Program-made: the position numbers and the translations under genes
The notes under the pieces: generated by a model
Told to the model about the DNA's origin: nothing
Seen by the model: the letters and a program-made list of their open reading frames with translations, nothing else
Database searches by the model: none
Origin: a virus
DNA: 26,525 nucleotides
Virus record (IMG/VR): IMGVR_UViG_3300020027_000029
Span: 1 to 26,525 of that record
Direction: 5' to 3' (one strand)
Shown: in pieces, positions 4,918-18,917 of the stretch
Numbering within the stretch: the stretch's first letter is position 1
Layout of the letters: each line of letters begins with the position of its first letter

Positions 4918-5358
4918 ATGGAACAGAGCATCCTGAAGAGCACCAAGAAGATTCTGGGCGTGGGCCCCGATGACGAATCGTTCGATCTCGACATCATCAC
5001 CCATATCAACGCGGAGTTCTCCATCCTCTCCGATCTGGGTGTGGGACCCGACGAAGGCTTCGTCATCGAGGACGACACGGTCCAGTGGGCAACGTATTTT
5101 CCCGACGAGGAAGATCCGGTCAAGCTGAAGATCTGGATGAGCAAAGTCAAGGCCTGCGTGTGGATGCGCACTCGACTGTTGTTCGATCCGCCTACGTCGT
5201 CATATCACCTGGACGCACTCAAGGCACAGCTGCTGGAGCAAGAGTGGCGCCTCAGTGCCAACCGCGAAGCGGTCGAGTACGTCGATCCTGCTCCGCGTGA
5301 GACGGATGACGACGAGCCGGCCGATACGACACCGGTGTTCGACGGCGGTGAGATCTAG
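4918..5358 (+). CDS. Phage gp6-like head-tail connector/adaptor
   Basis: ATG 4918 follows AAAGGGGGTGGA. The 146-aa product has S-I-L-K-S-T-K-K-I-L-G-V near the N-terminus, D-L-D-I-I-T-H-I-N, L-G-V-G-P-D-E-G-F, V-K-A-C-V-W-M-R-T-R-L-L-F-D-P-P-T-S-S and L-E-Q-E-W-R-L-S-A-N-R-E. This is the known layout of gp6-like adaptor proteins that form a ring under the portal. The C-terminal 25 residues are acidic and disordered. Normally this gene follows the major capsid gene. Here it lies upstream of the terminase large subunit, about 14 kb from the other connector genes (18933, 19240), so the neck genes have been split. Confidence 0.75.
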   Translation: MEQSILKSTKKILGVGPDDESFDLDIITHINAEFSILSDLGVGPDEGFVIEDDTVQWATYFPDEEDPVKLKIWMSKVKACVWMRTRLLFDPPTSSYHLDALKAQLLEQEWRLSANREAVEYVDPAPRETDDDEPADTTPVFDGGEI

Positions 5359-5361
5359 GCC

Positions 5362-6678
5362 ATGGCTGTCACGTTCAAACTCAAGCGGGGTCTCTCCGAC
5401 GAGTGGGAAACCAAGAATCCCATTCTCGCGGCGGGTGAACCGGGTGTCGAGAAGGACACCAGTCTGTTGAAGATTGGCGACGGCACGACGCCGTGGAACT
5501 CACTGCCATATTCCGTCGGTGGCGGAGGAGAACCCGGCCCCGAAGGCGCTGAAGGACCGGAAGGTCCAGAGGGACCCCAGGGTACTCAGGGGATTCAGGG
5601 ACCTCGTGGTTTGACAGGTCCGGAAGGCAGCCTTGGTCCGGAGGGTCCCGAAGGCCCAGAAGGACCAACCGGCCCAACTGGCTCAGAGGGTCCTCGCGGG
5701 TTCAAGGGGGATCCGGGGGACGACGGTGCCGACGGAGTTGCCGGCGCTGACGGTACCGACGGAGTTGCCGGCGCTGACGGTACCGACGGAGTTGCCGGCG
5801 CTGATGGCGCCGAGGGTCCTGCCGGCCCAGAAGGTCCGGCTGGTGATATTGGTCCAGAGGGTCCGCAAGGTCCCGAAGGTCCTGCCGGCCCAGAAGGCCC
5901 GGAAGGTCCTGCTGGCCCAGAAGGCGATGCCGGCCCCGAAGGCCCTGAAGGTCCGGAAGGATCCGGTGGCGGTGGTAGCAGCATGGAGGTGCATGCTTCT
6001 ATCTCGGCACGTCCGGCCGCATCAACCGTTCCGTATACTTTCATCGTAGTCACTGATCAGCCTCCTGATTCGAAGCTGCAGTGGTCGGATGGCACGAAGT
6101 GGTATGCGGTGGCGACGGGAGCTGAGGTTCCGGACACCCTGGATCTGTTCTTCACCGCCAATGGCGACACCAACGGTCTCATCTACTGGCTGGGTACTCG
6201 GAGTGGTGGCTTTGCCACACCGGTCCCGACCTCGATCGGTTTGTCCCTCGACGGAACTCAGCTCAAGCTCGATGCGTCGTCGGCGGAAGCCAGTTTGAAT
6301 CAGCTCTATGCTCTGGTCGATCGTACGGCGAACGTATTCGCAACGAACAACGTCGCCGGTCCGACCATTCGCTTCGATCTGAAGAATCGAAAGATGAAGG
6401 TCAACCGATACGCGCTGCGCGCGCGTCAGGACGCGGTCGGCAACATGCCGAGAAACTGGGTGCTCGAAGCATCGAATGACGCATCCAGCTGGACGACGTT
6501 GAAGACGCACGCAGCGGACACCACGCTGACCACAGCATCACAGTGGGCTTCGTTCGCGATTACCAATACGGATTCATGGCGTTATCTACGCTTGCGCGGT
6601 ACGGGCGTGGACAGCAGCGGAAGCGCGCAGTACATCGTGCTCGGTGAAGTCGAGTTCTATGGAACCTTGACGCTCTGA
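5362..6678 (+). CDS. Collagen-like fibre protein with C-terminal discoidin-like domain
   Basis: ATG 5362 starts 4 bases after the adaptor stop. The 438-aa product has three parts. Residues 1-50 (F-K-L-K-R-G...[12 protein letters not shown]...K-I-G-D-G-T-T-P-W) form a module common at the start of phage fibres. Residues about 55-205 are Gly-X-Y collagen repeats, mostly G-P-E, G-A-D and G-P-A triplets, then a Gly/Ser linker. The C-terminal part ends in a beta-rich domain (about 320-438) with [12 protein letters not shown] and G-E-V-E-F-Y-G, typical of F5/8 C (discoidin-like) carbohydrate-binding folds. It is probably a trimeric fibre that binds the host surface; whether head- or tail-attached is open. 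The next gene is the 2H-phosphoesterase protein. Confidence 0.85.
5734..5808 (+). repeat. 27-bp tandem repeat inside the collagen-like gene
   Basis: Units at 5734-5760 and 5761-5787 are identical, and a partial third copy (5788-5808) differs only in its last bases. Each encodes nine residues (G-V-A-G-A-D-G-T-D). Identical nucleotides, not only residues, point to recent slippage or recombination, a likely source of fibre-length variation. Confidence 0.85.
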
Positions 6679-6702: not shown

Positions 6703-8391
6703 ATGAGTAACCTCGTCATCGTCGCCATTCCGGATGAGAACGATCGCGTTTGGAAGGTCTCGAGTGAGAAGATCCCCCATCTCACCCTGTTGCACTTGGG
6801 TGATTCGGATGACGTGGCGAACCTCGATCAAATCATGCTCTTCGCGGAGCATGCGGCCAACACGACGCTGCGGAGGTTCTACCTACCGGTGGATCGTCGC
6901 GGTGAACTGGGCGATGCCAAGGCGGACGTGCTCTTCTTTAAGAAGGGACGTTACGACTACAAGGCGGTTCGGGATTTCCGGGTTCAGCTGCTGAAGGACG
7001 ACAACATCCGGACAGCCAACGATTCGGTCGCACAGTTCGAGGGCCCATGGAATCCCCATCTGACGTTGGGGTATCCGGACAAGCCGGCCAAGCCCGATGC
7101 CACCGATCGCGACTTCGGGTTCTACGACGTCGGTTTCAACAAGATCGCCGTGTGGGTCGACAACTACGACGGCCCGGAGTTCCTGCTCAAGGACTACTGG
7201 GACGAGTGGGAGGCGCTGGAGTCCGTGCCCATGGATGTCGCCATGAGCGATATTCGTCCGCTGGATCCTGTCGCCCATACCTCCGATGTAGGCGCCAAGT
7301 TTCTGGCACACTACGGGGTTAGGGGCATGAAGTGGGGGGAGCGCAAGGTAGGAGAACCAAATGGCTGGCTGGACCCCTCCGGTCGTGAGGTCAGCTCAGA
7401 TATCTCTAAGGCAGCGATCGGTGTCATCGTGCCTGTCGTTGCTCCGCTCACCATTCCGGCACAGGTTCGCTTGATTCGAGGTGGAGCTCGCGCACTTAAG
7501 GCGCGCTCACTTCACAAGGAGGAGCAGAAGTTCGAGAAGGTCGCCAAGTCACAGGAAGGCTTCGTCGCAATTCACAACGGAGCCGCCGCTAAGATCAACC
7601 GCGACATCGGTCCGCTCAACGCAAAGCATCCGGGGGATTTGACCAAGGATTCCGCCAAGCAGAAGGCGTATGACAAAGACGTCACGAAGCTGATGCAGGA
7701 TGCTTACCGCGAGTCAGCCAATTCGCTTACCAACAAGCGAGGCACCAAGCACGTCGATCTCGAATTCCACAACGACGGCATGGACTTCACCATCAAGGTG
7801 AAGGACGGTCCGCCGATCCCCACGGTGGAGCGAGTCAAGCACGCTGCCGAAGACGAAGGTCCGAGTGAGGCCACGTTCAAGGGAAAGATCAAGCGCGACG
7901 CCACCGGTCATATCGTCGGACTGAACTTCGACGACTTCGATCAGGTCGTGGAGCACTCGGCAGTCGATGTAGGTGCCGAGTTCGTTCTCGAACACGTCGG
8001 CGTCAAGGGCATGCGCTGGGGGGTGCGCAAGGAAGAGCCGGCGGCGGTGGGAGTCACCGCCACCTCGGTCGTCCCACACGGGGCGCGGCGCAAGACCAAG
8101 ATCAAGACCGAGGGTGGGGAGAACCATCCGGCCAGCCAGGACGCCGTCAAGGTGGCTGTGGCCAAGGCTAAGCTCAGGAAGAGTGGTACCTCAGCGCTGA
8201 GCAACCAGGAGTTGCAGGAGCTCCAGACTCGAATGAACCTGGAGCGCAACGTCAGTCAGCTCGTGGGTGGAAGCACGGCAATCGGTCGCGGACGCAAGTT
8301 CGTCAAGGATCTCACCGGCGCCAACAAGGAGTTCAACGAGACGATCGGTACGGGCATCCAGTCGGCTCGTCTCGTCAAGCAAGTGCGATAA
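6703..8391 (+). CDS. 2H phosphoesterase-domain protein with two GVKGMKWGVR-type motifs
   Basis: ATG 6703 follows AAAGGAG. The 562-aa product is multidomain. Residues 1-165 carry the two H-x-T motifs of the 2H phosphoesterase superfamily, P-H26-L-T28-L and P-H119-L-T121-L-G, with a following beta-rich stretch (G-F-Y-D-V-G-F...V-W-V-D-N). Residues 203-215 read H-Y-G-V-R-G-M-K-W-G-E-R-K and 431-443 H-V-G-V-K-G-M-R-W-G-V-R-K. Both match a short motif that, from memory, recurs in phage virion-region proteins with no settled function. Between them lies a hydrophobic segment (about 239-258, I-G-V-I-V-P-V-V-A-P-L) and a helical region. The C-terminus (about 490-562) is helical with L-S-N-Q-E-L-Q-E-L-Q-T-R. 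2H enzymes hydrolyse 2'-5' or cyclic phosphodiesters; the phage anti-CBASS enzyme Acb1 belongs to this superfamily. The substrate here is unknown. Confidence 0.75.
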   Translation: MSNLVIVAIPDENDRVWKVSSEKIPHLTLLHLGDSDDVANLDQIMLFAEHAANTTLRRFYLPVDRRGELGDAKADVLFFKKGRYDYKAVRDFRVQLLKDDNIRTANDSVAQFEGPWNPHLTLGYPDKPAKPDATDRDFGFYDVGFNKIAVWVDNYDGPEFLLKDYWDEWEALESVPMDVAMSDIRPLDPVAHTSDVGAKFLAHYGVRGMKWGERKVGEPNGWLDPSGREVSSDISKAAIGVIVPVVAPLTIPAQVRLIRGGARALKARSLHKEEQKFEKVAKSQEGFVAIHNGAAAKINRDIGPLNAKHPGDLTKDSAKQKAYDKDVTKLMQDAYRESANSLTNKRGTKHVDLEFHNDGMDFTIKVKDGPPIPTVERVKHAAEDEGPSEATFKGKIKRDATGHIVGLNFDDFDQVVEHSAVDVGAEFVLEHVGVKGMRWGVRKEEPAAVGVTATSVVPHGARRKTKIKTEGGENHPASQDAVKVAVAKAKLRKSGTSALSNQELQELQTRMNLERNVSQLVGGSTAIGRGRKFVKDLTGANKEFNETIGTGIQSARLVKQVR

Positions 8392-8405
8392 AAGGGGGTG
8401 TTCGT

Positions 8406-8558
8406 TTGGGTCTCGCTCTGATTCTCATCGGACTCGTCGTGTTGGTCCTGTGGTCGACACTGCTCGGGGGTCTCCTGATCATCGTCGGGATTGCCCTGTT
8501 GTTCGTGCCGAACACGTACGGCTATTCGTCATGGCGAGGCCGTAGGGGACCACCGTAA
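8406..8558 (+). CDS. 50-aa two-span membrane protein (holin-like candidate)
   Basis: TTG 8406 lies 7 bases after AGGGGG (8393-8398). The 50-aa product starts G-L-A-L-I-L-I-G-L-V-V-L-V-L-W, turns at S-T-L-L-G-G, and continues L-L-I-I-V-G-I-A-L-L-F-V-P, giving two short hydrophobic helices. It ends in a basic tail (S-W-R-G-R-R-G-P-P). Two spans with a positive C-terminus suit a holin or other small membrane protein. The location directly before the terminase large subunit and away from the lysins makes the holin assignment uncertain. Codon use and tight spacing to both neighbours support a real gene. Confidence 0.6.
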   Translation: MGLALILIGLVVLVLWSTLLGGLLIIVGIALLFVPNTYGYSSWRGRRGPP

Positions 8559-8574
8559 TAGAAAGGAGGGGTAA

Positions 8575-10320
8575 GTGGCACTGTCCAACTCAGCAGTCCC
8601 GGTGTACTACGGGCAGTTTCGCCACGCGGTGATGCGCGGAGAAATTCCGGTCAACCGGGAGATCTCTATGGAGATGAACCGGATCGACGCGCTTGTCACA
8701 AACCCCAACATCTACTACGACGATCAGGCGGTGGAGGGTTTTCTGCGCTTCTGCGAAGGGGAGATGACCCTGACGGAAGGCAGTGACCTCCACCTCCTGT
8801 TCACGTTCAAACTGTGGTCCGAGCAGATCTTTGGCTGGTACTACTTTGTGAACCGGTCGGTCTACGTCCCCTCGGACGGTAACCACGGTGGCCACTACGA
8901 GACCCGAACGGTCAAGATTCGACTGATCAAGAAGTTCTATCTGATCGTGGCCCGAGGGTCGGCCAAGTCGATGTTTGCCGCTTTGATCCAGGCCTACTAC
9001 ATGACGGTCGATACCTCGACCACCCACCAGATCACCACGGCCCCGACCATGAAGCAGGCCGAAGAGGTGATGTCTCCGATTCGCACGGCTATCACCCGTT
9101 CACGTGGACCATTGCTCAAGTTCCTCACCGAGGGATCGATGCAGAATACCACGGGTAATCGGATGATGCGGCAAAAGCTGGCGGCTACCAAGAAGGGTAT
9201 CGAGAACTTTCTCACCGGATCTCTTCTGGAGATTCGCCCCATGGCCATCAACAAGCTTCAGGGTCTTCGGACCAAGATTGCCACAGTCGATGAATGGCTT
9301 TCCGGCGATCTGAGAGAAGATGTCATCGGGGCAATTGAGCAGGGAGCATCCAAGTTGGATGACTACTTGATCATTGCCATCAGCTCAGAAGGTACAGTCC
9401 GAGCCGGTTCGGGTGACACCATCAAAATGGAACTAATGGACATCCTTAAGGGGGAGTTCATTGCTCCGCACATCTCAATCTGGCACTACAAGCTAGACGA
9501 TCTGGAAGAAGTTGCTGATCCAGAGATGTGGTTGAAGGCGAATCCGAATCTGGGACAGACGGTTACCTACGAGACGTACCAACTGGATGTTGAACGCGCG
9601 GAGAAAGCTCCGGCAGCGCGTAACGATATTCTCGCTAAGCGCTTCGGCATCCCGATGGAGGGCTACACGTACTTCTTTACCTATGAGGAGACGCTCCCCC
9701 ACCGAGTTCGTGAGTTCTGGCAGCTACCCAGTGCGTTGGGAATGGATGCTTCTCAAGGCGATGACTTCTGGGCTTTTACTTTCATGTTCCCGCTGGGCGG
9801 AGATCTCTACGGGATCAAGACTCGGAGCTACATCACCGAGCGCACGCTCATGTTGTTGCAGTCGGCCATGCGACAGAAGTACGAAGAATTCATCACTGAG
9901 GGCAGCTTGCACGTGATGAACGGAACGATTCTGAATTGGGAAGAGATCTACGACGATCTCGATGCTTATATCATCGCTTCTGAATACGACATTCGTTGCT
10001 TTGGCTACGACCCGTACAACGCCAAAGAGTTTGTCAATCGGTGGGAGGCTGAGAACGGCCCGTTCGGGATTGAAAAGGTGATTCAGGGGGCCAAGACGGA
10101 ATCCGTGCCGCTCGGAGAGTTGAAGAAGCTGTCCGAGGATCGCAATCTTATTTTCGACCAGTCTCTGATGTCGTTTGCCATGGGCAACGCTATTACGCTG
10201 GAAGATACTAACGGCAACCGTAAGCTCCTCAAGAAGCGACAAGAGGAGAAGATCGATAACGTGGCGGCCTTGATGGACGCCTACATCGCAATGAAAGCCA
10301 ATCCGGAGGCGTTCGAATAA
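8575..10320 (+). CDS. Terminase large subunit
   Basis: GTG 8575 follows GAAAGGAGGGG. The 581-aa product is full length for the family. The ATPase domain has the Walker A variant V125-A-R-G-S-A-K131-S132 and Walker B I-A-T-V-D239-E240-W, preceded by an adenine-binding-like region. The C-terminal nuclease domain has G-M-D391-A-S, Y-D479-P-Y-N and A-L-M-D568-A-Y, the expected acidic metal ligands of the RNase H-like fold. It forms the packaging motor on the portal and cuts DNA into genome lengths. It overlaps the SGNH gene by one base (TAATG). The probable small subunit is about 7.5 kb upstream at 727, not adjacent as usual. Confidence 0.93.
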   Translation: MALSNSAVPVYYGQFRHAVMRGEIPVNREISMEMNRIDALVTNPNIYYDDQAVEGFLRFCEGEMTLTEGSDLHLLFTFKLWSEQIFGWYYFVNRSVYVPSDGNHGGHYETRTVKIRLIKKFYLIVARGSAKSMFAALIQAYYMTVDTSTTHQITTAPTMKQAEEVMSPIRTAITRSRGPLLKFLTEGSMQNTTGNRMMRQKLAATKKGIENFLTGSLLEIRPMAINKLQGLRTKIATVDEWLSGDLREDVIGAIEQGASKLDDYLIIAISSEGTVRAGSGDTIKMELMDILKGEFIAPHISIWHYKLDDLEEVADPEMWLKANPNLGQTVTYETYQLDVERAEKAPAARNDILAKRFGIPMEGYTYFFTYEETLPHRVREFWQLPSALGMDASQGDDFWAFTFMFPLGGDLYGIKTRSYITERTLMLLQSAMRQKYEEFITEGSLHVMNGTILNWEEIYDDLDAYIIASEYDIRCFGYDPYNAKEFVNRWEAENGPFGIEKVIQGAKTESVPLGELKKLSEDRNLIFDQSLMSFAMGNAITLEDTNGNRKLLKKRQEEKIDNVAALMDAYIAMKANPEAFE

Positions 10321-11609
10321 TGGGAAACATGTTCACCGCTCATCTGTTCGGGCGTAGCAAGCGTGGCGATCGCGAAGAAGTCAGGATCAAGCTGTTCGAG
10401 TTGGACGGAAGTCCGTTCGCGGGTGGTCGCGGTGGTCAGCCACCGGTCGAGGAACTGTGGGCTTACGGTCACAGCTTGCTCGTCGTTGACGCAAATCCGA
10501 CCGTCGTTGAGAGGATCGGACGTGCGCTGGGTCTACCGGCGGATGCGATTCACAACCGGGCCGTGGATGGCGGTATTCTCGCTGCGGATGAGGACCCGGC
10601 TACGAGTCCCATCGTCATGGTCGGCGGGGCGGTGCGGGTGCTACAGGATTGGCCGGGGGCAGCGTTGCCCGCACCCTTCGATCAGCCCAGAGCCTTCGGC
10701 GCCGACAAGTACGCGATGATCCAGCACGGATTCAACGATTTGATCTGGGGTGAGGTCTTCGGACAGTCCTCAGATGGAACACTGTTCGGGGTCGAGGGAT
10801 CCCTACGCGCAGCCATCGCGCGCCTTCGCGCATCACGTGTGGACGAGAGCAACGGCGGTGCGCCGATTGCCTATGCCGCTCCGGACGGTGCGGTCGCGGC
10901 GTGGACCAACGTGGCCAGTGTCCTGCGCAACTCCGGCTCGGGATACCACCGGCAGAGCAATCCGAGTGGTGGAACGCTGCCCGGCTCAGCGATTACGTAC
11001 ACCATTCCGGACGGTTATCGGGGTGAGCCCATTTTCTGGGGATTCATCGGTCACGCCGATTCCGACGGTGTGATTTGGACGATCAAGGTCGACGGTGTGA
11101 CGGTGGCCACCTATGACCTGAGCGACTTCGACGGTGCCATCGGGAACTACACCGCGTTGGGCGTTCGGCTTGCCGAGGTTGCCCCCACGGCAGCAGTCGT
11201 CACCGCCACACCTTCGATTCCCGCAGGCAAGGCCGCCTTGTTCGACTATGTGTCGATTGAGGCCGGTTTGCCGGGACCGATTCAGGTGCTCGGAAACCCG
11301 CGTTGGCCGGAAGCAACCTACGACATATTCCATGCCGGCGGCGCGGCCTCGCTCGAGGACACGACCCTGACCGAATTGGATGACGTGCTCGAGTCGGTGT
11401 GCGCTGAGTTTGACAGCTTGGTGCTGTACACGCCGATGATGTCCGCAACCAACAAGCAGCGCCACCTGTTCTCACTCGAGGCCATCGGGGCGTCTCCCGC
11501 GGGGATCCATTTCTCCAACGCCGGCGCAGCACGAGTGGCAGCACGCGCTGCGAGCGCCTACTGGAACCAGGTCGACCTCCCCGTGGTCGCGCCCGAGAAC
11601 GCCGAGTAG
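10320..11609 (+). CDS. SGNH-hydrolase-like esterase, putative virion protein
   Basis: ATG 10320 overlaps the terminase stop, with GGAGG at about 10304-10308. The 429-aa protein has an N-terminal module (1-45: F-T-A-H-L-F...V-R-I-K-L-F-E-L-D-G-S-P-F) resembling the N-termini of the 12236 and 12842 products. SGNH hydrolase blocks follow: Y-G-H-S52 (block I, GHS instead of GDS), G137-F-N139-D-L (block III) and G-I-H397-F-S-N-A-G (block V). The usual Asp three residues before His is Ala, so a Ser-His dyad is possible. A beta-rich insertion (about 195-315), with I-W-T-I-K-V-D-G-V-T-V, looks like a carbohydrate-binding domain between blocks III and V. It may deacylate a host surface glycan or lipid. 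There is no signal peptide. Confidence 0.7.
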   Translation: MGNMFTAHLFGRSKRGDREEVRIKLFELDGSPFAGGRGGQPPVEELWAYGHSLLVVDANPTVVERIGRALGLPADAIHNRAVDGGILAADEDPATSPIVMVGGAVRVLQDWPGAALPAPFDQPRAFGADKYAMIQHGFNDLIWGEVFGQSSDGTLFGVEGSLRAAIARLRASRVDESNGGAPIAYAAPDGAVAAWTNVASVLRNSGSGYHRQSNPSGGTLPGSAITYTIPDGYRGEPIFWGFIGHADSDGVIWTIKVDGVTVATYDLSDFDGAIGNYTALGVRLAEVAPTAAVVTATPSIPAGKAALFDYVSIEAGLPGPIQVLGNPRWPEATYDIFHAGGAASLEDTTLTELDDVLESVCAEFDSLVLYTPMMSATNKQRHLFSLEAIGASPAGIHFSNAGAARVAARAASAYWNQVDLPVVAPENAE

Positions 11610-11634
11610 ACCACACCAACTAGGGAGGCGTTCA

Positions 11635-12213
11635 ATGAGAACCCAAGAGTTCGTCTCCCCTGAGGAGGCACTGGAGCACTTCGGCATCAAGGGTATGAAG
11701 TGGGGGGTACGGAAGACAGATCAGCCCAAGTCCGAAGCAGCAGGACTGCTCAAGGGTGCGTCGGTTACGCGTACCACCAAGAACGGGGATGAGTTCACCA
11801 TTTCCCAAACTCCCCCCAACTGGCTTCAGAAGGCGTTGGCAAAAGCCAGTCCGACCTACCGAGAGCAGTTCAATGACTCGGCGTATTTGTCCATCAAGGA
11901 CAAGAACGGTAAGAAGATCGGCGCGGCTAACTTCTGGAACAAAGGCCCCGATACGGTCTATCTCAACTGGATCACGATCAACAAGCATGCTCGTGGTAAC
12001 GGTTATGCCAGCGCGGTGCTCAAGTCGGCAGAAGATCATTCTCGCGCCGCGGGCAAGAAGCAGATGGTTCTCGAAGTGCCGGGTAATGCCCCTGACGCTC
12101 GTCATATCTACGAGGGTATGGGGTTCAAGGTCACGAAAGAGCCTACGGCGAAGGAAGCCAAAGCGGATCCGCTGTGGGGTGGCCTTACCCACATGGAGAA
12201 GAAACTTGACTAA
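11635..12213 (+). CDS. GNAT acetyltransferase with N-terminal GVKGMKWGVR-type motif
   Basis: ATG 11635 follows GGGAGG. The 192-aa product starts with 14 residues, then H15-F-G-I-K-G-M-K-W-G-V-R-K27, the same motif found twice in the 6703-8391 product. Residues about 85-175 form a GNAT fold: I-T-I-N-K-H-A-R120-G-N-G-Y-A (acetyl-CoA pyrophosphate loop), A-V-L-K-S-A-E-D-H, L-E-V-P-G-N-A-P-D-A and I-Y-E-G-M-G-F-K-V, the classical last GNAT motif. The substrate is unknown. The shared motif suggests it is recruited to the same place as the 2H protein, perhaps the capsid. It is flanked by virion-protein genes. Confidence 0.8.
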   Translation: MRTQEFVSPEEALEHFGIKGMKWGVRKTDQPKSEAAGLLKGASVTRTTKNGDEFTISQTPPNWLQKALAKASPTYREQFNDSAYLSIKDKNGKKIGAANFWNKGPDTVYLNWITINKHARGNGYASAVLKSAEDHSRAAGKKQMVLEVPGNAPDARHIYEGMGFKVTKEPTAKEAKADPLWGGLTHMEKKLD

Positions 12214-12235: not shown

Positions 12236-12829
12236 ATGAGTGATGACTTCATCGAGGCTCGTATTCTGCCTCGACGGCACGAAGGCGACGTCGAAGTTGC
12301 TCGCCTGGAGTTGTATCACCCAGACGGCTCGCCTCTGGTAATTCCGGAGGCTGGCGGGGGGTCGATGGTTTTCGACGGATATTCCACCTTCGCGACCGAT
12401 GCGCTGCAGACGGCACATGAGGCGGTGCCGTTTGGGAACGTCGAGATCACCTACGTCGATGGATTCGAAGTTGACGAAGATGGGTCTTTGGCCATCGATG
12501 CTCCTGCGGGAGCATACTGGGTGAAGTTCGCGGTCAACATGACTTTTCCTGAAGGCGAGCCTACGGCTGGGTTCATGCACATGCGCATCGACATGGCTTA
12601 CGTGAATCCGAACACTGGGAACCCGGCTGTTGCCAATCTGGGCATCATCGAAATCAGCAGTCAACACGACGCGATGGGGTACGGTGACTTTGGGTTCGAT
12701 GATTTCCCGATCGTCAAACAGACCGTCGGCGTTGCTCCGGTAGCAGGTCAGATCAAGTTCACGACCGAACCGAACGCTACCGATCAGCCCGTGACTGTGA
12801 ATCCGAGAATTACTCTCGTCAAACTGTAA
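12236..12829 (+). CDS. Putative virion structural protein, beta-rich
   Basis: ATG 12236 follows AAGGAGGTG. The 197-aa product has an N-terminus (F-I-E-A-R-I...V-A-R-L-E-L-Y-H-P-D-G-S-P-L) similar to that of the SGNH protein, followed by a beta-strand-rich region with many Asp/Gly turns and no hydrophobic membrane span. I do not recognise a family. Its position among fibre and enzyme genes and the shared N-terminal module suggest a minor structural protein anchored in the same way as its neighbours. Confidence 0.6.
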   Translation: MSDDFIEARILPRRHEGDVEVARLELYHPDGSPLVIPEAGGGSMVFDGYSTFATDALQTAHEAVPFGNVEITYVDGFEVDEDGSLAIDAPAGAYWVKFAVNMTFPEGEPTAGFMHMRIDMAYVNPNTGNPAVANLGIIEISSQHDAMGYGDFGFDDFPIVKQTVGVAPVAGQIKFTTEPNATDQPVTVNPRITLVKL

Positions 12830-12841
12830 AGGGGGGATAGT

Positions 12842-14887
12842 ATGGCAAGAGTGCAGTCAGAGAAGGTACGTCAGGCGATCCTCACCGGGGATTCTACGTG
12901 GGACCCAATCAACATCCCTGAGAAGTTGGCGTTGTTCGACGAGGAAGGAAACCCGATCAACCTGCAGACCGCAGGTGGAAATGGGGTTCCACTGGGCGGC
13001 ACCGATGGTCAGATATTGACCAAGCAGTCCGCTACGGATTACGACATCAACTGGGAGAACGCGCCAGTTGCTCTCCCACCCGGGGGTGATGCGGGGCAGA
13101 TCTTGGCCAAGGCCAGCGATGACGACGCTGACGCTGAGTGGGTCGATCCGCCAGAAGGTGGCGGGGGTGGCGGCGAAGCAGCCTATATCTTCCGCGAGAC
13201 GTTCGACACGGATCTTTCCATGTACGTCCCGGATCTGCAGCAGGTTGTCGAGACGGATTTCGAGGATCTCGTAGTCGAAGATGGCGCGATGTATCAGACT
13301 GGCGCAGTCGATCACACCTTCCATGCGATTGACGGCGAGTTCGTCAACGGCATTATGGTGGCGAAGGTTATGCCGTCGGATACCATGATGCTTTCGGTCG
13401 TCAAGTGGATTGACGACGAGAACTGGATTATGCTTCAGTACTTGCGTCATCACGACGCGCTTCAGCTGTACTACACGGTGGGCGGCGAACTCACCAACTT
13501 GGTTACGCTGAATGAGCCTAGTGACGGTGGGCCTCTATATTTTGCGTTGGGAATAGACGGCCAAAACGTCTTCGGCGCGGCTTACTACGCTGATCCAAGG
13601 TCTGGGGCCCCGCCTTATTATTCCGTGTACGATCGTATCGAAGATGCCGATGCGGCGGCGTTGGTTGATATACCAGGTCGTGCGGGTCTTCGCTTCGGTG
13701 GCTATAGCTCAGGTTTCGTCGATCCCGGCGAGGACTATAAGCTTCTCGAGCACTGGGCGACTGATCTCACCTCCTTCCTTACGGCGGGAGGCGGCGGAAG
13801 CGGCGGAAACGGTCTGTTTGGCGATGCCTGGAAGGGCGAGTACGACGACGATGATCCTTACGTTGCAGGAGATGTCGTTCGCTATGCGAGCAGCCTCTAC
13901 TTCGCGACGGCAGATTCGGTGGTCGATGGGCCTGCTCCTGGCGAAGAGGTGGAAGCCGCGCCTCTTGAGCCGAATAACATCTACCCGTCCGAGATGTCGG
14001 TGAAGCTGGGGCCGAATATCCCGGTAGACATCACTATCCTCGTGTCTGGGATGGCGGACGCTGTATATTTCTACTTCGATGTGACGACGGCCGGTACCCT
14101 GACCTTCCATAAGGGTGCGCTTGGACATCTGTGGATCTCACAACCGGATAACAACGATTTGTTCTACGACGAATCGGATGATCGTACGGAAACATTGACG
14201 CAAACCGGTCGGTATTTCGCCGCAATGCGTCTGTACGGTGCGGGTCCTATCGACACCATGTTGGAGTTGATTCCGGGTACTGCGGTCCTAGAAGAACTAC
14301 CGAGCAGCAATCCGTGGGAACTCGTCATTTCTGGCCCGGGTGCGGCTATGAAGTTTCGAGGGGTTTGGACTTCAAGTCTCGACTTCGTTCTCGGAGACGT
14401 AGTGATCGATACCAGTCATACCTACGTCTTGAAGGTGCCTGAACTGATAGCGGGTCAGACTCGCCCAAGCGAAGAGATCCCCCCCGAAGATGTGGTCGAG
14501 GGACCGGGTGGCGATATCGGTACTGTTGATTGTTATCGCATCAGTCCGATTACAGGAGATCGTCTTATCGAAGACGCGGCCGGAGGGTTGGCTTTCTTCT
14601 TCGATCTTCTCGAGGGTGGGACCGTCACTATCACCGATCCGATGCTTAGTGGAGAGTTCATTAATCTCTGCGACGATTCGGGTACGTCAATTGCTACGAA
14701 CCATCCGGTGCCTGGGTACGGTGGAGCGATAGTGAAGACGGGACTGACACCAGGGCGATATTTCCTGAATCACCAGGACGCCTTCGCTACTCCGCCCTAC
14801 GACATGAACCCGACGATTGTGCTGTCTGACGATGCCGAGTGGGATTTCGGTGACGAGAAGTGGACCAAGATCGCGGTCATCGACTGA
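12842..14887 (+). CDS. Large modular fibre/adhesin-like structural protein
   Basis: ATG 12842 follows AAAGGGGGG. The 681-aa product starts with a short module (L-A-L-F-D-E-E-G-N-P-I), then two copies of a phage fibre motif G-x-x-G-Q-I-L-x-K-x-S-x-x-D-x-D-x-x-W (near residues 58-76 and 81-99) and a Gly linker. A LamG/concanavalin-like region (about 112-320) follows. Two chitin-binding-like modules appear (W-K-G-E-Y-D...Y-V-A-G-D-V-V near 330 and F-R-G-V-W-T...L-G-D-V-V near 503), each followed by a beta-sandwich with G-R-Y-F. It is a carbohydrate-binding receptor or decoration fibre by architecture. Neither a catalytic site nor a chaperone domain is apparent. It lies directly before the portal gene. 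Confidence 0.7.
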   Translation: MARVQSEKVRQAILTGDSTWDPINIPEKLALFDEEGNPINLQTAGGNGVPLGGTDGQILTKQSATDYDINWENAPVALPPGGDAGQILAKASDDDADAEWVDPPEGGGGGGEAAYIFRETFDTDLSMYVPDLQQVVETDFEDLVVEDGAMYQTGAVDHTFHAIDGEFVNGIMVAKVMPSDTMMLSVVKWIDDENWIMLQYLRHHDALQLYYTVGGELTNLVTLNEPSDGGPLYFALGIDGQNVFGAAYYADPRSGAPPYYSVYDRIEDADAAALVDIPGRAGLRFGGYSSGFVDPGEDYKLLEHWATDLTSFLTAGGGGSGGNGLFGDAWKGEYDDDDPYVAGDVVRYASSLYFATADSVVDGPAPGEEVEAAPLEPNNIYPSEMSVKLGPNIPVDITILVSGMADAVYFYFDVTTAGTLTFHKGALGHLWISQPDNNDLFYDESDDRTETLTQTGRYFAAMRLYGAGPIDTMLELIPGTAVLEELPSSNPWELVISGPGAAMKFRGVWTSSLDFVLGDVVIDTSHTYVLKVPELIAGQTRPSEEIPPEDVVEGPGGDIGTVDCYRISPITGDRLIEDAAGGLAFFFDLLEGGTVTITDPMLSGEFINLCDDSGTSIATNHPVPGYGGAIVKTGLTPGRYFLNHQDAFATPPYDMNPTIVLSDDAEWDFGDEKWTKIAVID

Positions 14888-14917: not shown

Positions 14918-16252
14918 ATGGCAAAGCTCGGAGCTCGGCTGAAGCATGCTTGGAATGCGTTTTCCGATAGTGACAGCGCAAGAAATCGCCCGATTGACAT
15001 GGTTGGGGGTGGGGGTTCCTACCTCAGTGTCGGTCCTGATCGGCAGCGTCGGCGTTTCTCAACCGAGCGATCGATCATCTCCTCGATCTACACTCGAATC
15101 GGTATCGATGTGTCAGCGATACCTATGCGACACGTTCGCATGGATGACCAAAATCGATACATGGAGGACATCGACAGTGGACTTGACAGTTGCCTGACCC
15201 TCGAGGCCAACGTAGATCAAGCCGGTCGGGCGTTCCGGCAGGACGTGGCCATGACCATTCTGGACGAAGGTATCGCAGCCATCGTTCCGGTAGAGACCAC
15301 GCTGTCTCCGGAGGAATCGGGCAGCTGGGATATCAAGACCATGCGGGTAGGTCGTGTCACATCGTGGTTTCCCAGGCACGTGCGGGTCTCGCTCTACAAC
15401 GAAGAGCGTGGTATGCGTGAGGAACTCACGTTGCCAAAGAAGATGGTGGCGATCATCGAGAATCCGCTGTATTCGGTGATGAACGAGCCGAATTCGACGC
15501 TGCAACGTCTGATTCGTAAGCTCAATCTTCTGGATGAGGTGGACGAGAAGTCCTCTTCGGGCAAACTCGACATGATCATTCAGCTTCCGTACGTGATCAA
15601 GTCGGAAGCACGACGTCAGCAGGCCGAACAGCGGCGGAAGGACATCGAGTTCCAGCTGACAGGCAGCCAGTACGGCATCGCCTACACAGATGGTACCGAG
15701 AAGATCGTTCAGTTGAATCGTGCGGTGGAGAACAATCTGTTGCCACAGATTCAGGAGCTCAAGACTCAGCTCTACGCTGAATTGGGGCTTACGGCTGAAG
15801 TCATGAACGGTACGGCCGATGAGAAGACGATGTTGAACTACAACGCCCGCACGATCGAGCCATTGCTGGATGCGATCGTGGAGGCCATGCTCCGAGTCTT
15901 CCTCACGAAGACAGCGCGCACACAGGGCCAGTCGATCATGTACTTCCGGGACCCGTTCAAGTTCGTCCCGATCGGTGGTGAGGGTGGTATCGCCGATATC
16001 GCCGACAAGTTCACTCGTAACGAGATCACCTCGTCCAACGAGATTCGGCAGGCCATCGGTATGAAGCCGCGTCCTGAGCCCAAGGCTGATGCGCTGATTA
16101 ACTCCAACATGCCTCAGGGTAAGACGGGGGTGGCCATCGATTCCACAGCCGAAGAGATCGTCGATGACGAACCCGATCCGGTTGTGGCTCAGCTGACCGA
16201 AGATCTGGCCAGCACCGAAGCTGAGGTCGATGCGGCACTGGCGGGTGGGTAA
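14918..16252 (+). CDS. Portal protein (HK97/SPP1-like)
   Basis: ATG 14918 follows GGAAGGAGGTG. The 444-aa product contains I-I-S-S-I-Y-T-R-I-G-I-D-V-S near residue 53, a wing/stem region with I-Q-E-L-K-T-Q-L-Y-A-E-L-G-L-T-A-E-V-M-N-G and long helices (I-E-P-L-L-D-A-I-V-E-A-M-L), then F-T-R-N-E-I-T-S-S-N-E-I-R-Q-A-I-G-M, the usual portal clip/crown pattern. The C-terminus is acidic. The dodecameric portal is the DNA entry ring and docks the terminase. Its stop overlaps the scaffold-like gene (TAATG), and the capsid fusion follows, the normal head-gene order. Confidence 0.9.
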   Translation: MAKLGARLKHAWNAFSDSDSARNRPIDMVGGGGSYLSVGPDRQRRRFSTERSIISSIYTRIGIDVSAIPMRHVRMDDQNRYMEDIDSGLDSCLTLEANVDQAGRAFRQDVAMTILDEGIAAIVPVETTLSPEESGSWDIKTMRVGRVTSWFPRHVRVSLYNEERGMREELTLPKKMVAIIENPLYSVMNEPNSTLQRLIRKLNLLDEVDEKSSSGKLDMIIQLPYVIKSEARRQQAEQRRKDIEFQLTGSQYGIAYTDGTEKIVQLNRAVENNLLPQIQELKTQLYAELGLTAEVMNGTADEKTMLNYNARTIEPLLDAIVEAMLRVFLTKTARTQGQSIMYFRDPFKFVPIGGEGGIADIADKFTRNEITSSNEIRQAIGMKPRPEPKADALINSNMPQGKTGVAIDSTAEEIVDDEPDPVVAQLTEDLASTEAEVDAALAGG

Positions 16253-16788
16253 TGCTAACGCCTACCGAGTTCGAACTCCAACACGTCTACGACCCGGTCG
16301 CGGCCCGTGAGTACTACCTTCGGACCCGAAAGCTGAAGGGCCGACAGCCGGGGGCTGGTGACGATCCCAGGACGGGTCTGACCCGTGGACAGATCGCCAG
16401 CAATGCCAAGACCCGGCAGCGTAAGGAACTCGCCGCCCGCATCCAGTCTCTCTCGAAAAAGTTGGACCGGCTCGAAGCCAAGATCCGAGAGATGGAGAGC
16501 AAGGCGAAAAGTGAGGACCGTAAGGGAGAGGCAAAGAAGGAACGGGCGGCCAAAGAGGCGGACAAGCCGAAGACCGCTGCCGAAAAGGCTGAAGCTGCTC
16601 GCGAAAGTGAGAAGTATCGCGACAAGAACAAGCAGAAACTGAAGAATCAGGCGAAGCAAGCCAGCAGCAAGTCTGGCGGCGGTAGCTCCAAGAAGTCGGG
16701 AACGAAGACGGTTACCGATTTTAAGGCTTTGGCCACCAAAGTTAAGGGGCAGATCGCAGTCGCCAAACAGAAGCTAGCTGCGCTCTAA
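16252..16788 (+). CDS. Scaffold-like protein with YDPxxAREYYLRTRxLKGR motif
   Basis: ATG 16252 shares a base with the portal stop. The 178-aa product has a short motif (residues 13-31: Y-D-P-V-A-A-R-E-Y-Y-L-R-T-R-K-L-K-G-R) then a long Lys/Glu/Ala coiled coil (about 65-140) and a Ser/Gly/Lys-rich C-terminal part ending in another helix. Similar YDPxxAxEYY...LKGR motifs occur, from memory, in phage head-region proteins of Gram-positive hosts. The place between portal and the protease-capsid fusion and the coiled coil fit a scaffolding protein. Direct evidence for scaffolding is lacking. Confidence 0.6.
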   Translation: MLTPTEFELQHVYDPVAAREYYLRTRKLKGRQPGAGDDPRTGLTRGQIASNAKTRQRKELAARIQSLSKKLDRLEAKIREMESKAKSEDRKGEAKKERAAKEADKPKTAAEKAEAARESEKYRDKNKQKLKNQAKQASSKSGGGSSKKSGTKTVTDFKALATKVKGQIAVAKQKLAAL

Positions 16789-16826: not shown

Positions 16827-18917
16827 ATGGGAGAAAAGTCCCGCCGACTGGATTTCGGTGACTCTTCGCCGGAGAACAGTCTGATGCATTCGGCCGCTGC
16901 GGTCAAGCCCGACTTCAGTGGCTGGGCCACGAAGTTCGGTCTGCGCTGCTCGGACGGGCGCACTATCCTGAACGGTGCCTTCGAGCACCAGGACGGAGAC
17001 CGAGTTCCGCTGGTCTGGCAGCACGGGCACAGCTCGCCCGAGAACGTCCTGGGACACGCGATCCTGGAGACCAAGAAGCAGGGTGTCTACTGCTACGGGT
17101 ACTTCAACGACACGGCCCAGGCCCAGAACGCGAAGACGTTGGTGCAGCACGAGGACATCTCGGCGCTGTCGATCTTCGCAAATTCGCTCATCGAGAAGGC
17201 CAAGCAGGTCTCGCACGGCATCATCCGCGAGCTCTCGCTGGTCCTGGCCGGCGCCAATCCCGGCGCGCTGATCGACAACATCGAGATCGCGCACGCGGAC
17301 GGTTCGGTGGATACGGTCGCTGACGAAGCGATTATCTACACCGGCCTGGAGCTGGAGCACGCCGACGGTCCCACCGCTGAGGCGGAAACGGAGATCGAGA
17401 CGGTGACGGTGACCGAGACGGTGACGGTGACGGACAACGATCCGACCGTTTCGGACGTCTACGCGACGATGACTTCGGAGCAGCAGGAGGTCGTCCACTA
17501 CATGGTGGGCGCAGCTCTGGAGAGCACGGCAACCCCCGAAAGCACCACCGAAACCGAGACCTCCGACGAGGAGGGCATCACCCACGACGACAAGGACGAG
17601 AACGAGATGAGCGGACGAAACGTCTTCGAGCAGGCCCGCGAGGACCGCGAGGCCGCGCCCCGGACCGTGCTTTCGCACGACGCGATGCGTGGCATCGCCG
17701 CCGACGCCGTCAAGCGTGGCTCGCTGAAGGAGGCAGTGGAGGACTACGCCTTCAAGCACGGCATCGAGAGCATCGACACGCTGTTCCCGGATGCGCGGAC
17801 GATCACCGACACCCCGGAGTTCGACAAGCGCCGGACCGAGTGGGTGTCCGAGGTCCTCAACAAGGTCCGCAAGAGCCCGTTCTCGCGGATCAAGTCGATC
17901 ACGGCGGACATCACCCACACCGAGGCGCGGGCGAAGGGCTACATCAAGGGCACGCTGAAGAAGGAGGAGTTCTTCGGCCTGATGAAGCGCGTCACGACCC
18001 CGAGCACGGTGTACAAGAAGCAGAGGCTCGATCGCGACGACATCATCGACATCACGGACTTCGATGTCGTGCTGTGGCTGAAGGCCGAGATGCGGCTCAT
18101 GCTCGACGAGGAGATCGCGCGCGCCATCCTCATCGGGGACGGCCGTGACGTCGACGACGAGGACAAGGTCCGGGACCCGAAGGGCGCCACCGACGGGGCC
18201 GGCATCCGTTCGATCCTCAACGACGACGACCTCTACGCGGCGACGATCACGATCGACGTCGACGGGGACCTCAAGAAGACGGACCTCGTGGACAAGATCC
18301 TCGAGTCCATGCGGTTCTACAAGGGCTCCGGGCTCCCGACGTTCTACACGACGCTGCCCGTCATGACGCAGATGCTGCTGGCCCGAGACACGCACGGCCG
18401 GCGCTTCTACCGCACCGCCACGGATCTCGCGGCGGAGCTGGGCGTCGACAAGGTGGTGACCTGCGAGGTCATGGAGGACGAAGTCGACCTGGTCGGGCTC
18501 GTCGTCAACCTCCAGGACTACACGATGGGCGCCGACCGCGGTGGCGAGGTGTCGTTCTTCGACGACTTCGACATCGACTACAACCAGTACAAGTACCTGA
18601 TCGAGGCCCGCGCTTCCGGAGCCCTCACCAAGATCCGGTCCGCGCTGGTCATCAAGCAGGCCGCGTCCGGCGCCACCAAGGTCATGCCGGCCGAGCCGGT
18701 GTTCGATCCGGACGACTCCGAGATCACGATCACCGACACCACGGGAGTCACCTACCGCCGCAGCGATACCAACGCGGCGGTGACGAGCTCCGGCTCGCCG
18801 TACGTCGTCGACGAGGGCGTGGACCTCACGATCTACGCCGTCGCCAACGCGACGTACTTCTTCGACAACAACGTCGAGGACGAGTGGACGTTCCGCGGCA
18901 CGGCCGGCGGCGCGTAG
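16827..18917 (+). CDS. Prohead protease-major capsid protein fusion (HK97 fold)
   Basis: ATG 16827 follows GAAAGG. The 696-aa product joins two functions normally encoded separately. Residues about 30-150 match S78 prohead protease: V-P-L-V-W-Q-H66-G-H (His), A-L-S115-I-F-A-N (Ser) and I-R-E135-L-S-L-V-L-A-G-A-N-P-G-A (acidic residue and terminal motif). Residues about 170-265 are a low-complexity Thr/Glu/Val/Asp linker. The HK97-type capsid domain follows from about residue 266 (G-R-N-V-F-E-Q), with W-L-K-A-E-M-R-L-M-L-D-E-E-I-A-R-A-I-L-I-G-D-G. The last 70 or so residues look like an Ig-like surface domain ending E-D-E-W-T-F. Codons are strongly C/G-ending, as expected for the most abundant virion protein. 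The linker must be cut to free the capsid subunit. Confidence 0.88.
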   Translation: MGEKSRRLDFGDSSPENSLMHSAAAVKPDFSGWATKFGLRCSDGRTILNGAFEHQDGDRVPLVWQHGHSSPENVLGHAILETKKQGVYCYGYFNDTAQAQNAKTLVQHEDISALSIFANSLIEKAKQVSHGIIRELSLVLAGANPGALIDNIEIAHADGSVDTVADEAIIYTGLELEHADGPTAEAETEIETVTVTETVTVTDNDPTVSDVYATMTSEQQEVVHYMVGAALESTATPESTTETETSDEEGITHDDKDENEMSGRNVFEQAREDREAAPRTVLSHDAMRGIAADAVKRGSLKEAVEDYAFKHGIESIDTLFPDARTITDTPEFDKRRTEWVSEVLNKVRKSPFSRIKSITADITHTEARAKGYIKGTLKKEEFFGLMKRVTTPSTVYKKQRLDRDDIIDITDFDVVLWLKAEMRLMLDEEIARAILIGDGRDVDDEDKVRDPKGATDGAGIRSILNDDDLYAATITIDVDGDLKKTDLVDKILESMRFYKGSGLPTFYTTLPVMTQMLLARDTHGRRFYRTATDLAAELGVDKVVTCEVMEDEVDLVGLVVNLQDYTMGADRGGEVSFFDDFDIDYNQYKYLIEARASGALTKIRSALVIKQAASGATKVMPAEPVFDPDDSEITITDTTGVTYRRSDTNAAVTSSGSPYVVDEGVDLTIYAVANATYFFDNNVEDEWTFRGTAGGA

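Follow-up and report, generated by a model that had tools for sequence, protein, structure and literature searches.

A viral contig of 26,525 nucleotides (IMG/VR record IMGVR_UViG_3300020027_000029; hereafter the window), which carries the late region of a siphophage, encodes three copies of a short peptide in two otherwise unrelated proteins, a 2H phosphoesterase and a GNAT acetyltransferase. The peptide, known to Pfam as the family DUF7211 (PF23847), is confined to the head module of phages whose prohead protease and major capsid protein are encoded as one fused gene, where it is joined to a wide variety of proteins. We propose, with a probability of about 0.62, that DUF7211 is a modular tag for incorporation into the prohead, through which a core head protein and a swappable set of enzymes are docked for enclosure and ejection. 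In the window, the 2H enzyme is attached to the core head protein itself, and the GNAT protein would be a separate tagged cargo.

DUF7211 copies and their carrier proteins

The tagged genes of the window have the following parts.

6703-8391, + strand: core head protein with N-terminal 2H phosphoesterase, in the order 2H, tag 1, middle domain, tag 2, LSNxEL head module
6703-7212, + strand: 2H phosphoesterase domain (residues 1-170), HxT motifs H26-L-T28 and H119-L-T121, confident AlphaFold2 model with a LigT/CPDase-like fold
7294-7347, + strand: DUF7211 tag 1, 40.4 bits, predicted disordered linker with predicted local distance difference test (pLDDT) below 50
7309-7347, + strand: 13-residue motif copy 1, in frame, HYGVRGMKWGERK, 2H protein
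7468-7932, + strand: middle domain, about residues 256-410
7984-8037, + strand: DUF7211 tag 2, 37.6 bits, predicted disordered linker
7993-8031, + strand: 13-residue motif copy 2, in frame, HVGVKGMRWGVRK, 2H protein
8134-8301, + strand: core head module, consensus ALSNKELQDLINRLNLEKQYKRL, in common with ORF7 of Lactococcus phage 1706
11635-12213, + strand: tagged RimI-like GNAT acetyltransferase, acetyl-CoA loop R120-GNGYA
11659-11721, + strand: N-terminal DUF7211 tag of the GNAT protein, 46.4 bits
11677-11715, + strand: 13-residue motif copy 3, in frame, HFGIKGMKWGVRK, GNAT protein

An earlier note on this DNA, made from the letters alone, had described the 13-residue motif at three sites, in otherwise unrelated proteins and in DNA copies too diverged for a fresh duplication, and each of these points holds. 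In-frame translation reproduces the three copies, and a six-frame translation of the window yields none beyond them. The carriers are a 2H phosphoesterase and a GNAT, and a fresh duplication is ruled out because the motif copies are only moderately similar in DNA, at 30-31 of 39 positions identical in pairwise comparison. All three exceed the curated cut-off of the 25-residue DUF7211 model (27 bits), with E values, as they apply to this record, of 8.8e-12 for tag 1, 6.5e-11 for tag 2 and 1.2e-13 for the GNAT tag, and 14 control genomes contain no match to the model; chance is thereby ruled out as the origin of the motif. The note had also described similar motifs as recurring in phage head-region proteins with no settled role; the motif is a family already catalogued by Pfam as DUF7211, to which no function is assigned. 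A literature search for the family name and for the motif letters found neither, and a sequence search returned no solved structure of the tag, the 2H protein or the fused capsid. As a cargo tag, this known family would belong to a kind already represented by the T4 and P1 capsid-targeting sequences and by MuF fusions.

A profile of 95 distinct tags, gathered without selecting for histidine, displays acidic residues at -7 and -6, leucine or isoleucine at -4 (92/95), histidine at -2 (94/95) and an aromatic residue or histidine at -1, and continues as G-V/I-K-G-M-K/R-W-G-V-R-K/R. The tag begins within the first 30 residues in most proteins, and some carry two or three copies. Both tags of the 2H protein lie in stretches of the AlphaFold2 model with pLDDT below 50, between folded parts, as does the tag of an unrelated tagged protein.

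Three parts make up the 2H protein (2H, middle domain and conserved head module), and the tags lie in the linkers between them. Its N-terminal domain has both the paired HxT motifs and the fold of the 2H superfamily, with active-site motifs intact; its model, built from 33 sequences with a mean pLDDT of 73 for the whole protein, is matched by LigT, CPDase and Usb1 in Foldseek (E 1e-5 to 1e-3), and its Pfam 2H score, 23.8 bits, falls under the 27-bit cut-off of that family. The GNAT protein scores 43.7 bits against Acetyltransf_1 (cut-off 20.7), and its loop RGNGYA at residue 120 conforms to the family consensus Q/R-x-x-G-x-G/A.

The middle domain is restricted to tagged proteins (32/32 homologs in the loci examined), which may or may not also contain a 2H domain. 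The core module ALSNKELQDLINRLNLEKQYKRL, whose region includes long helices, is found in 171 tagged proteins from 171 loci, never more than once per locus, and its gene lies directly 5′ of the gene for the large terminase subunit (terL) in 141 of 167 cases; among 176 loci whose sequence extends far enough upstream of a full TerL, 46 have no detectable copy. Homologs of the window's protein are shuffled cassettes with up to three tags, such as 2H-tag-middle-tag-core, middle-tag-core and a version in which a domain resembling ADP-ribosyltransferases (ART) precedes a tag and the core. In Lactococcus phage 1706, open reading frame (ORF) 7 is the gene directly before terL; its product combines two tags with the core module and is labelled "structural protein" in GenBank. 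A core model built without Lactococcus sequences matches it with an E value of 1.8e-5, and on this match and the gene position next to terL that both share it is identified as the ortholog of the window's 2H-bearing core protein. ORF6 of 1706 bears the same GenBank label, and the product of 4918-5358 in the window is probably its counterpart. The structural labels of 1706 are said to rest on virion mass spectrometry, reported by Garneau and colleagues in 2008.

Confinement to one head module and variety of cargo

A tblastn search of 50,697 phage records with the 20-residue tag consensus matched 231 records, and an independent search with the fused capsid protein matched 246. By host genus, the counts for tag and fused capsid are 95 and 95 in Arthrobacter, 55 and 55 in Gordonia, 54 and 54 in Streptomyces, 7 and 7 in Curtobacterium and 4 and 4 in both Microbacterium and Rhodococcus; equal counts need not mean identical records, and the link was confirmed directly in the records opened, where TerL, portal and fused capsid are universal. 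Among Lactococcus phages the corresponding counts of 4 and 13 reflect divergent tags, which a hidden Markov model finds in all three of the Lactococcus phages tested.

The placement of the tag is similarly constrained. Each of 18 complete phage records (about 1.1 Mb) contains tags, two to nine apiece, nearly all of which fall in the interval from the gene before terL through the gene before portal, and 337 of 343 placed tagged proteins are encoded before terL or between terL and portal. Among contigs fetched through the capsid gene, 28 of 32 loci having at least 5.4 kb upstream contain tags, and the surroundings of viral capsid-fusion genes hold 52 tags in 328 kb upstream and none in 249 kb downstream. 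Of the loci fetched with a degenerate DNA pattern for the tag, 110 of the 115 viral ones and 38 of the 45 from bacterial genomes also contain a TerL, portal or capsid of this family, always on the strand of the tag; these stretches are short, and those lacking the three genes may simply end before them. The locus sets overlap in part and are not fully dereplicated.

The tag is thus confined to the head module of fused protease-capsid phages, where it clusters in all 18 complete records. Wide occurrence outside virion genes, named there as an outcome that would count against a virion role, is ruled out: none of 72,556 plasmids matched, and the matches in bacterial genomes sit in prophage head modules. 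One contig, L298, is binned as a Thermoplasmata archaeon and has a tag beside a TerL of the same family; it either belongs to a virus of archaea or was binned wrongly.

The proteins to which the tag is joined are highly diverse. The 497 tagged ORFs fall into 119 groups that show no detectable resemblance to one another once the tag is set aside; single linkage fused 330 of the proteins, and stricter groups were used to pick 173 representatives. Pfam domains among these representatives are 2H, RimI-like GNAT, papain-fold glutamine deamidase, Ntox50, DUF6883, M90 peptidase and P-loop, and both Ntox50 and the papain-fold deamidase share a reading frame with the tag.

A further domain, with the signature R..Y[AV]..D..Y ... 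GY.A..D.ND, is present in 35 of the 497 (for example, at L124:7046-7885) and has no Pfam match at E 0.001. Its predicted model ranks beside ADP-ribosyltransferase and RES folds, with MbcT at Z 9.0 (root-mean-square deviation 3.7, 144 residues aligned) and NatT, ParT and others at Z 6-7, where values below 8 are weak taken singly. A cyanophage pre-ejectosome protein is also close to this model (Foldseek probability 0.96, Z 7.5), and the top-ranking structures mostly share one common fold. These comparisons predict an ART/RES-like fold for the domain. The recognized tagged domains are of effector type, namely 2H, GNAT, ART/RES-like, papain-fold toxin and Ntox50. The defense-system models of PADLOC gave no match to the 2H or GNAT protein of the window. 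By analogy, the 2H enzyme could degrade the nucleotide signals of cyclic oligonucleotide-based antiphage signaling systems (CBASS) or of type III CRISPR, and a nucleotide-signal role was suggested earlier for polyvalent 2H domains (PMC5512222).

The 2H domain itself is not limited to tagged phages. Microbacterium and Arthrobacter phages with a different type of head have it fused to a MuF-like capsid maturation protein encoded after portal, and the 2H carriers L328-L330, which are untagged, contain the MuF domain. Three such MuF-2H genomes contain no tag even at E 1, and in Streptomyces phage SendItCS, where 2H resides on the core protein, there are two tags. The 2H enzyme thus travels with head proteins in both lineages, and the tag follows the fused protease-capsid lineage.

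A candidate address label for the prohead

The peptide is probably an address label that loads proteins into the particle, judging from the sequences on which it occurs. Phages with the fused protease-capsid gene would encode one tagged core inner-head protein beside terL, and the genes between it and portal would carry the same tag on swappable domains (2H, GNAT, ART/RES-like, papain-fold and other toxin-like domains). The flexible tag, [DE][DE]xLxH[YHF]GVKGMKWGVR[RK], would dock these proteins on a component common to all of these phages, and the docked proteins would become enclosed in the prohead. The docking site would most likely be the inward-facing side of the fused protease-capsid protein, or otherwise the portal; the prohead interior is the first choice because cargo must be enclosed. 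By analogy with other phages, the enzymes would then probably be ejected with the DNA, modifying the host or blunting its immunity. Ejection and a function in the host are proposed because of the precedents set by T4, P1, polyvalent and MuF proteins.

The idea of a virion-targeting tag, raised in the earlier note, thus gains indirect support from the confinement to the head module, the structural label of the 1706 ortholog and the effector-type domains. One partner suggested there, the product of the gene starting at 16252, between portal and capsid, does not survive: this cannot be the general docking partner because several tagged phages lack it, with Bilo, Loretta, 1706, P1046 and BitterVaud1 having no gene at all between portal and capsid.

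A known likeness is to the capsid-targeting sequence (CTS) of the T4 internal proteins (IP) IPI, IPII and IPIII and of Alt, similarly a short, usually N-terminal peptide on unrelated internal proteins, including a host-modifying enzyme, with an L/I-x-charged triplet; T4 Alt and the IPs are also the precedent for ejected head proteins (PMC9026906). The DUF7211 peptide likewise sits on unrelated proteins, and both their gene context and the label of 1706 ORF7 hint at an internal-head location. It differs in its internal and repeated copies and in the fused protease-capsid, and the likeness to the T4 sequence is one of form. The P1 DarB CTS (PMC9024508) resembles it in directing an anti-defense protein into the head by means of a peptide, and the Dar proteins provide a precedent for delivery (PMC9024508, PMC12810830); however, phage type and sequence differ, and loading was demonstrated by experiment in P1, whereas for DUF7211 it is proposed.

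The MuF polymorphic toxins of temperate phages (PMC5576092) also combine a head-associated carrier with swappable effectors, and overlap in Ntox50 and metallopeptidase domains. Here, however, the carrier is a peptide of 20-25 residues rather than a MuF domain, there are several tagged genes per phage, and those genes lie almost entirely before portal, whereas MuF genes directly follow it. With this difference in gene position and no MuF domain (PF04233 or relatives) in any of the 173 representatives, membership in that class is ruled out. In the polyvalent proteins of phages and conjugative elements (PMC5512222), 2H and RimI-like GNAT domains are predicted to be packaged and injected; the available text of that account does not describe the tag, and the proteins here are small and share a tag. 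The window's core protein places 2H, middle domain and core module in one polypeptide in a head gene context, with a single recognized effector domain.

Several observations weigh against the proposed prohead-incorporation tag. Most tagged proteins have no recognized domain, so that enzymatic cargo may not be the general case. The only virion claim is the GenBank label of 1706 ORF7. Exceptions to the usual gene position exist: six tagged genes directly follow portal, gene 4 of Crocheter is tagged outside the usual interval, and in the human saliva phage D_HF5_2C (L310, OR148986; 7307-9330), the clearest departure from the terL-portal placement, tags lie between major tail protein and tape measure, with one further copy. 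In addition, the co-occurrence of tag and fused capsid partly reflects descent of the whole head module and does not single out a partner. The same holds for the correlation between tag distance and capsid distance (Spearman 0.45), in which partner and shared descent are inseparable.

An alternative retains the targeting but adds processing: the prohead protease of the phage itself would cut at the L-x-H of the tag, just as T4 gp21 cuts at L/I-x-E, making tagged proteins propeptide- or polyprotein-like precursors and splitting 2H-tag-middle-tag-core into separate enzymes. Such a site would fit the near-invariant L/I and H of the tags, and the protease-capsid linker, which must be cut, has [LIVM]xH[ASD] in 130 of 137 genes and a density of [LIV]xH 12 times higher than the capsid domain. 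LxH also occurs near the N-terminus of the portal-capsid intervening protein in 11/11 (controls: 30/188 downstream genes and 6/206 TerL), and the T4 IP and Alt propeptides serve both targeting and cleavage (PMC9026906). However, the signature is weak at portal N-termini, where histidine is kept in only 64% ([LIVM]xH[AS][WYF] in 120/187), and cleavage leaves the strict GVKGMKWG after LxH unexplained; we regard processing at the tag as unlikely. In a broader proposal, the fused protease-capsid lineage would have evolved DUF7211, independently of T4, as a propeptide for both capsid targeting and processing. Its L-x-H would be the protease consensus, common to the capsid linker, the tags and further inner-head proteins, and the tag would allow anti-host enzymes (2H, GNAT, ART-like and toxin domains) to be loaded and swapped. 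This seems to us fairly unlikely.

A pure assembly role, in which scaffold-like or portal-vertex factors use the tag to bind portal or terminase with no delivery into the host, would be compatible with the terL-portal gene position, with the long helices of the core module and with the many tagged proteins that lack a known enzymatic domain. Scaffolds would not be expected to keep the active-site motifs of 2H and GNAT enzymes intact or to include Ntox50, papain-fold and ART/RES-like domains, though, and the swapping of the same 2H domain onto MuF proteins speaks against it as well, which makes such a role quite improbable. The basic character of the tag and its location in flexible linkers might instead suggest a nucleic-acid-binding peptide that enters the head by holding DNA under packaging; yet its strictly kept G, W and H and its acidity at -6 and -7 resemble a protein-binding motif, and DNA binding would not restrict the tag to one capsid type, so this is very unlikely. 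It is scarcely credible that the tag is simply left over from recombination or duplication of the core head gene and does nothing by itself on other proteins. Tags on non-homologous proteins are indeed more alike in their flanks within a contig than across contigs (identity 0.50 vs 0.37; all-site permutation 0/500), a pattern that fits a common partner in each phage and that local duplication would give equally. However, near-invariance across phages of Actinomycetota, Bacillota and Lactococcus, at N-terminal and internal sites of many unrelated proteins, requires selection.

If the prohead-incorporation tag is real, hundreds of genes labelled "hypothetical protein" in actinobacterial and gut phages become predicted packaged effectors, and the 20-residue peptide offers a simple sequence rule for spotting injected anti-defense enzymes, as well as a possible means of directing foreign proteins into the heads of siphophages that infect Gram-positive bacteria. 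The contents of the terL-portal interval in these phages would become a direct question for proteomics.

Other genes of the head region

The landmarks around the tagged genes of the window are these.

4918-5358, + strand: phrog_4247 virion structural protein, the gene preceding the core protein in relatives (position of 1706 ORF6)
8575-10320, + strand: terminase large subunit, landmark of the tagged gene block
14918-16252, + strand: portal protein, downstream border of the tagged block
16252-16788, + strand: portal-capsid intervening protein, N-terminal LxH..YDPxxAxEYYxRTxxLKGR, missing from several tagged phages
16827-18917, + strand: fused prohead protease-major capsid protein (phrog_3270, E 9e-235), constant partner of the tag and candidate docking site
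19559 and 21041: major tail proteins

Between the phrog_4247 gene and the core gene is inserted a tail-fibre or receptor-binding gene with collagen-like, Mtd_N and F5/8-type features (5362-6678). Other large genes, all unassigned, occupy the terL-portal interval at 10320-11609, 12236-12829 and 12842-14887. The N-terminus of portal (14918-14965) contains a conserved L-x-(H)-A-W-N-A-F segment, and the N-terminal motif of the intervening protein is a second short common motif, kept across Gordonia, Streptomyces, Arthrobacter and Microbacterium phages.

The fused protease-capsid gene has an internal methionine near residue 259, and 118 of 141 distinct genes have a methionine ahead of the (R/H)NVF block. 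A Shine-Dalgarno-like sequence lies just upstream of it in 94 of the 118, compared with 162 of 1560 control internal methionines, and the glutamate of the upstream EG in fused capsid genes is encoded by GAA in 62/64 cases, against 36% elsewhere. These sequence features point to a conserved internal start, which may yield a free capsid protein besides the fusion.

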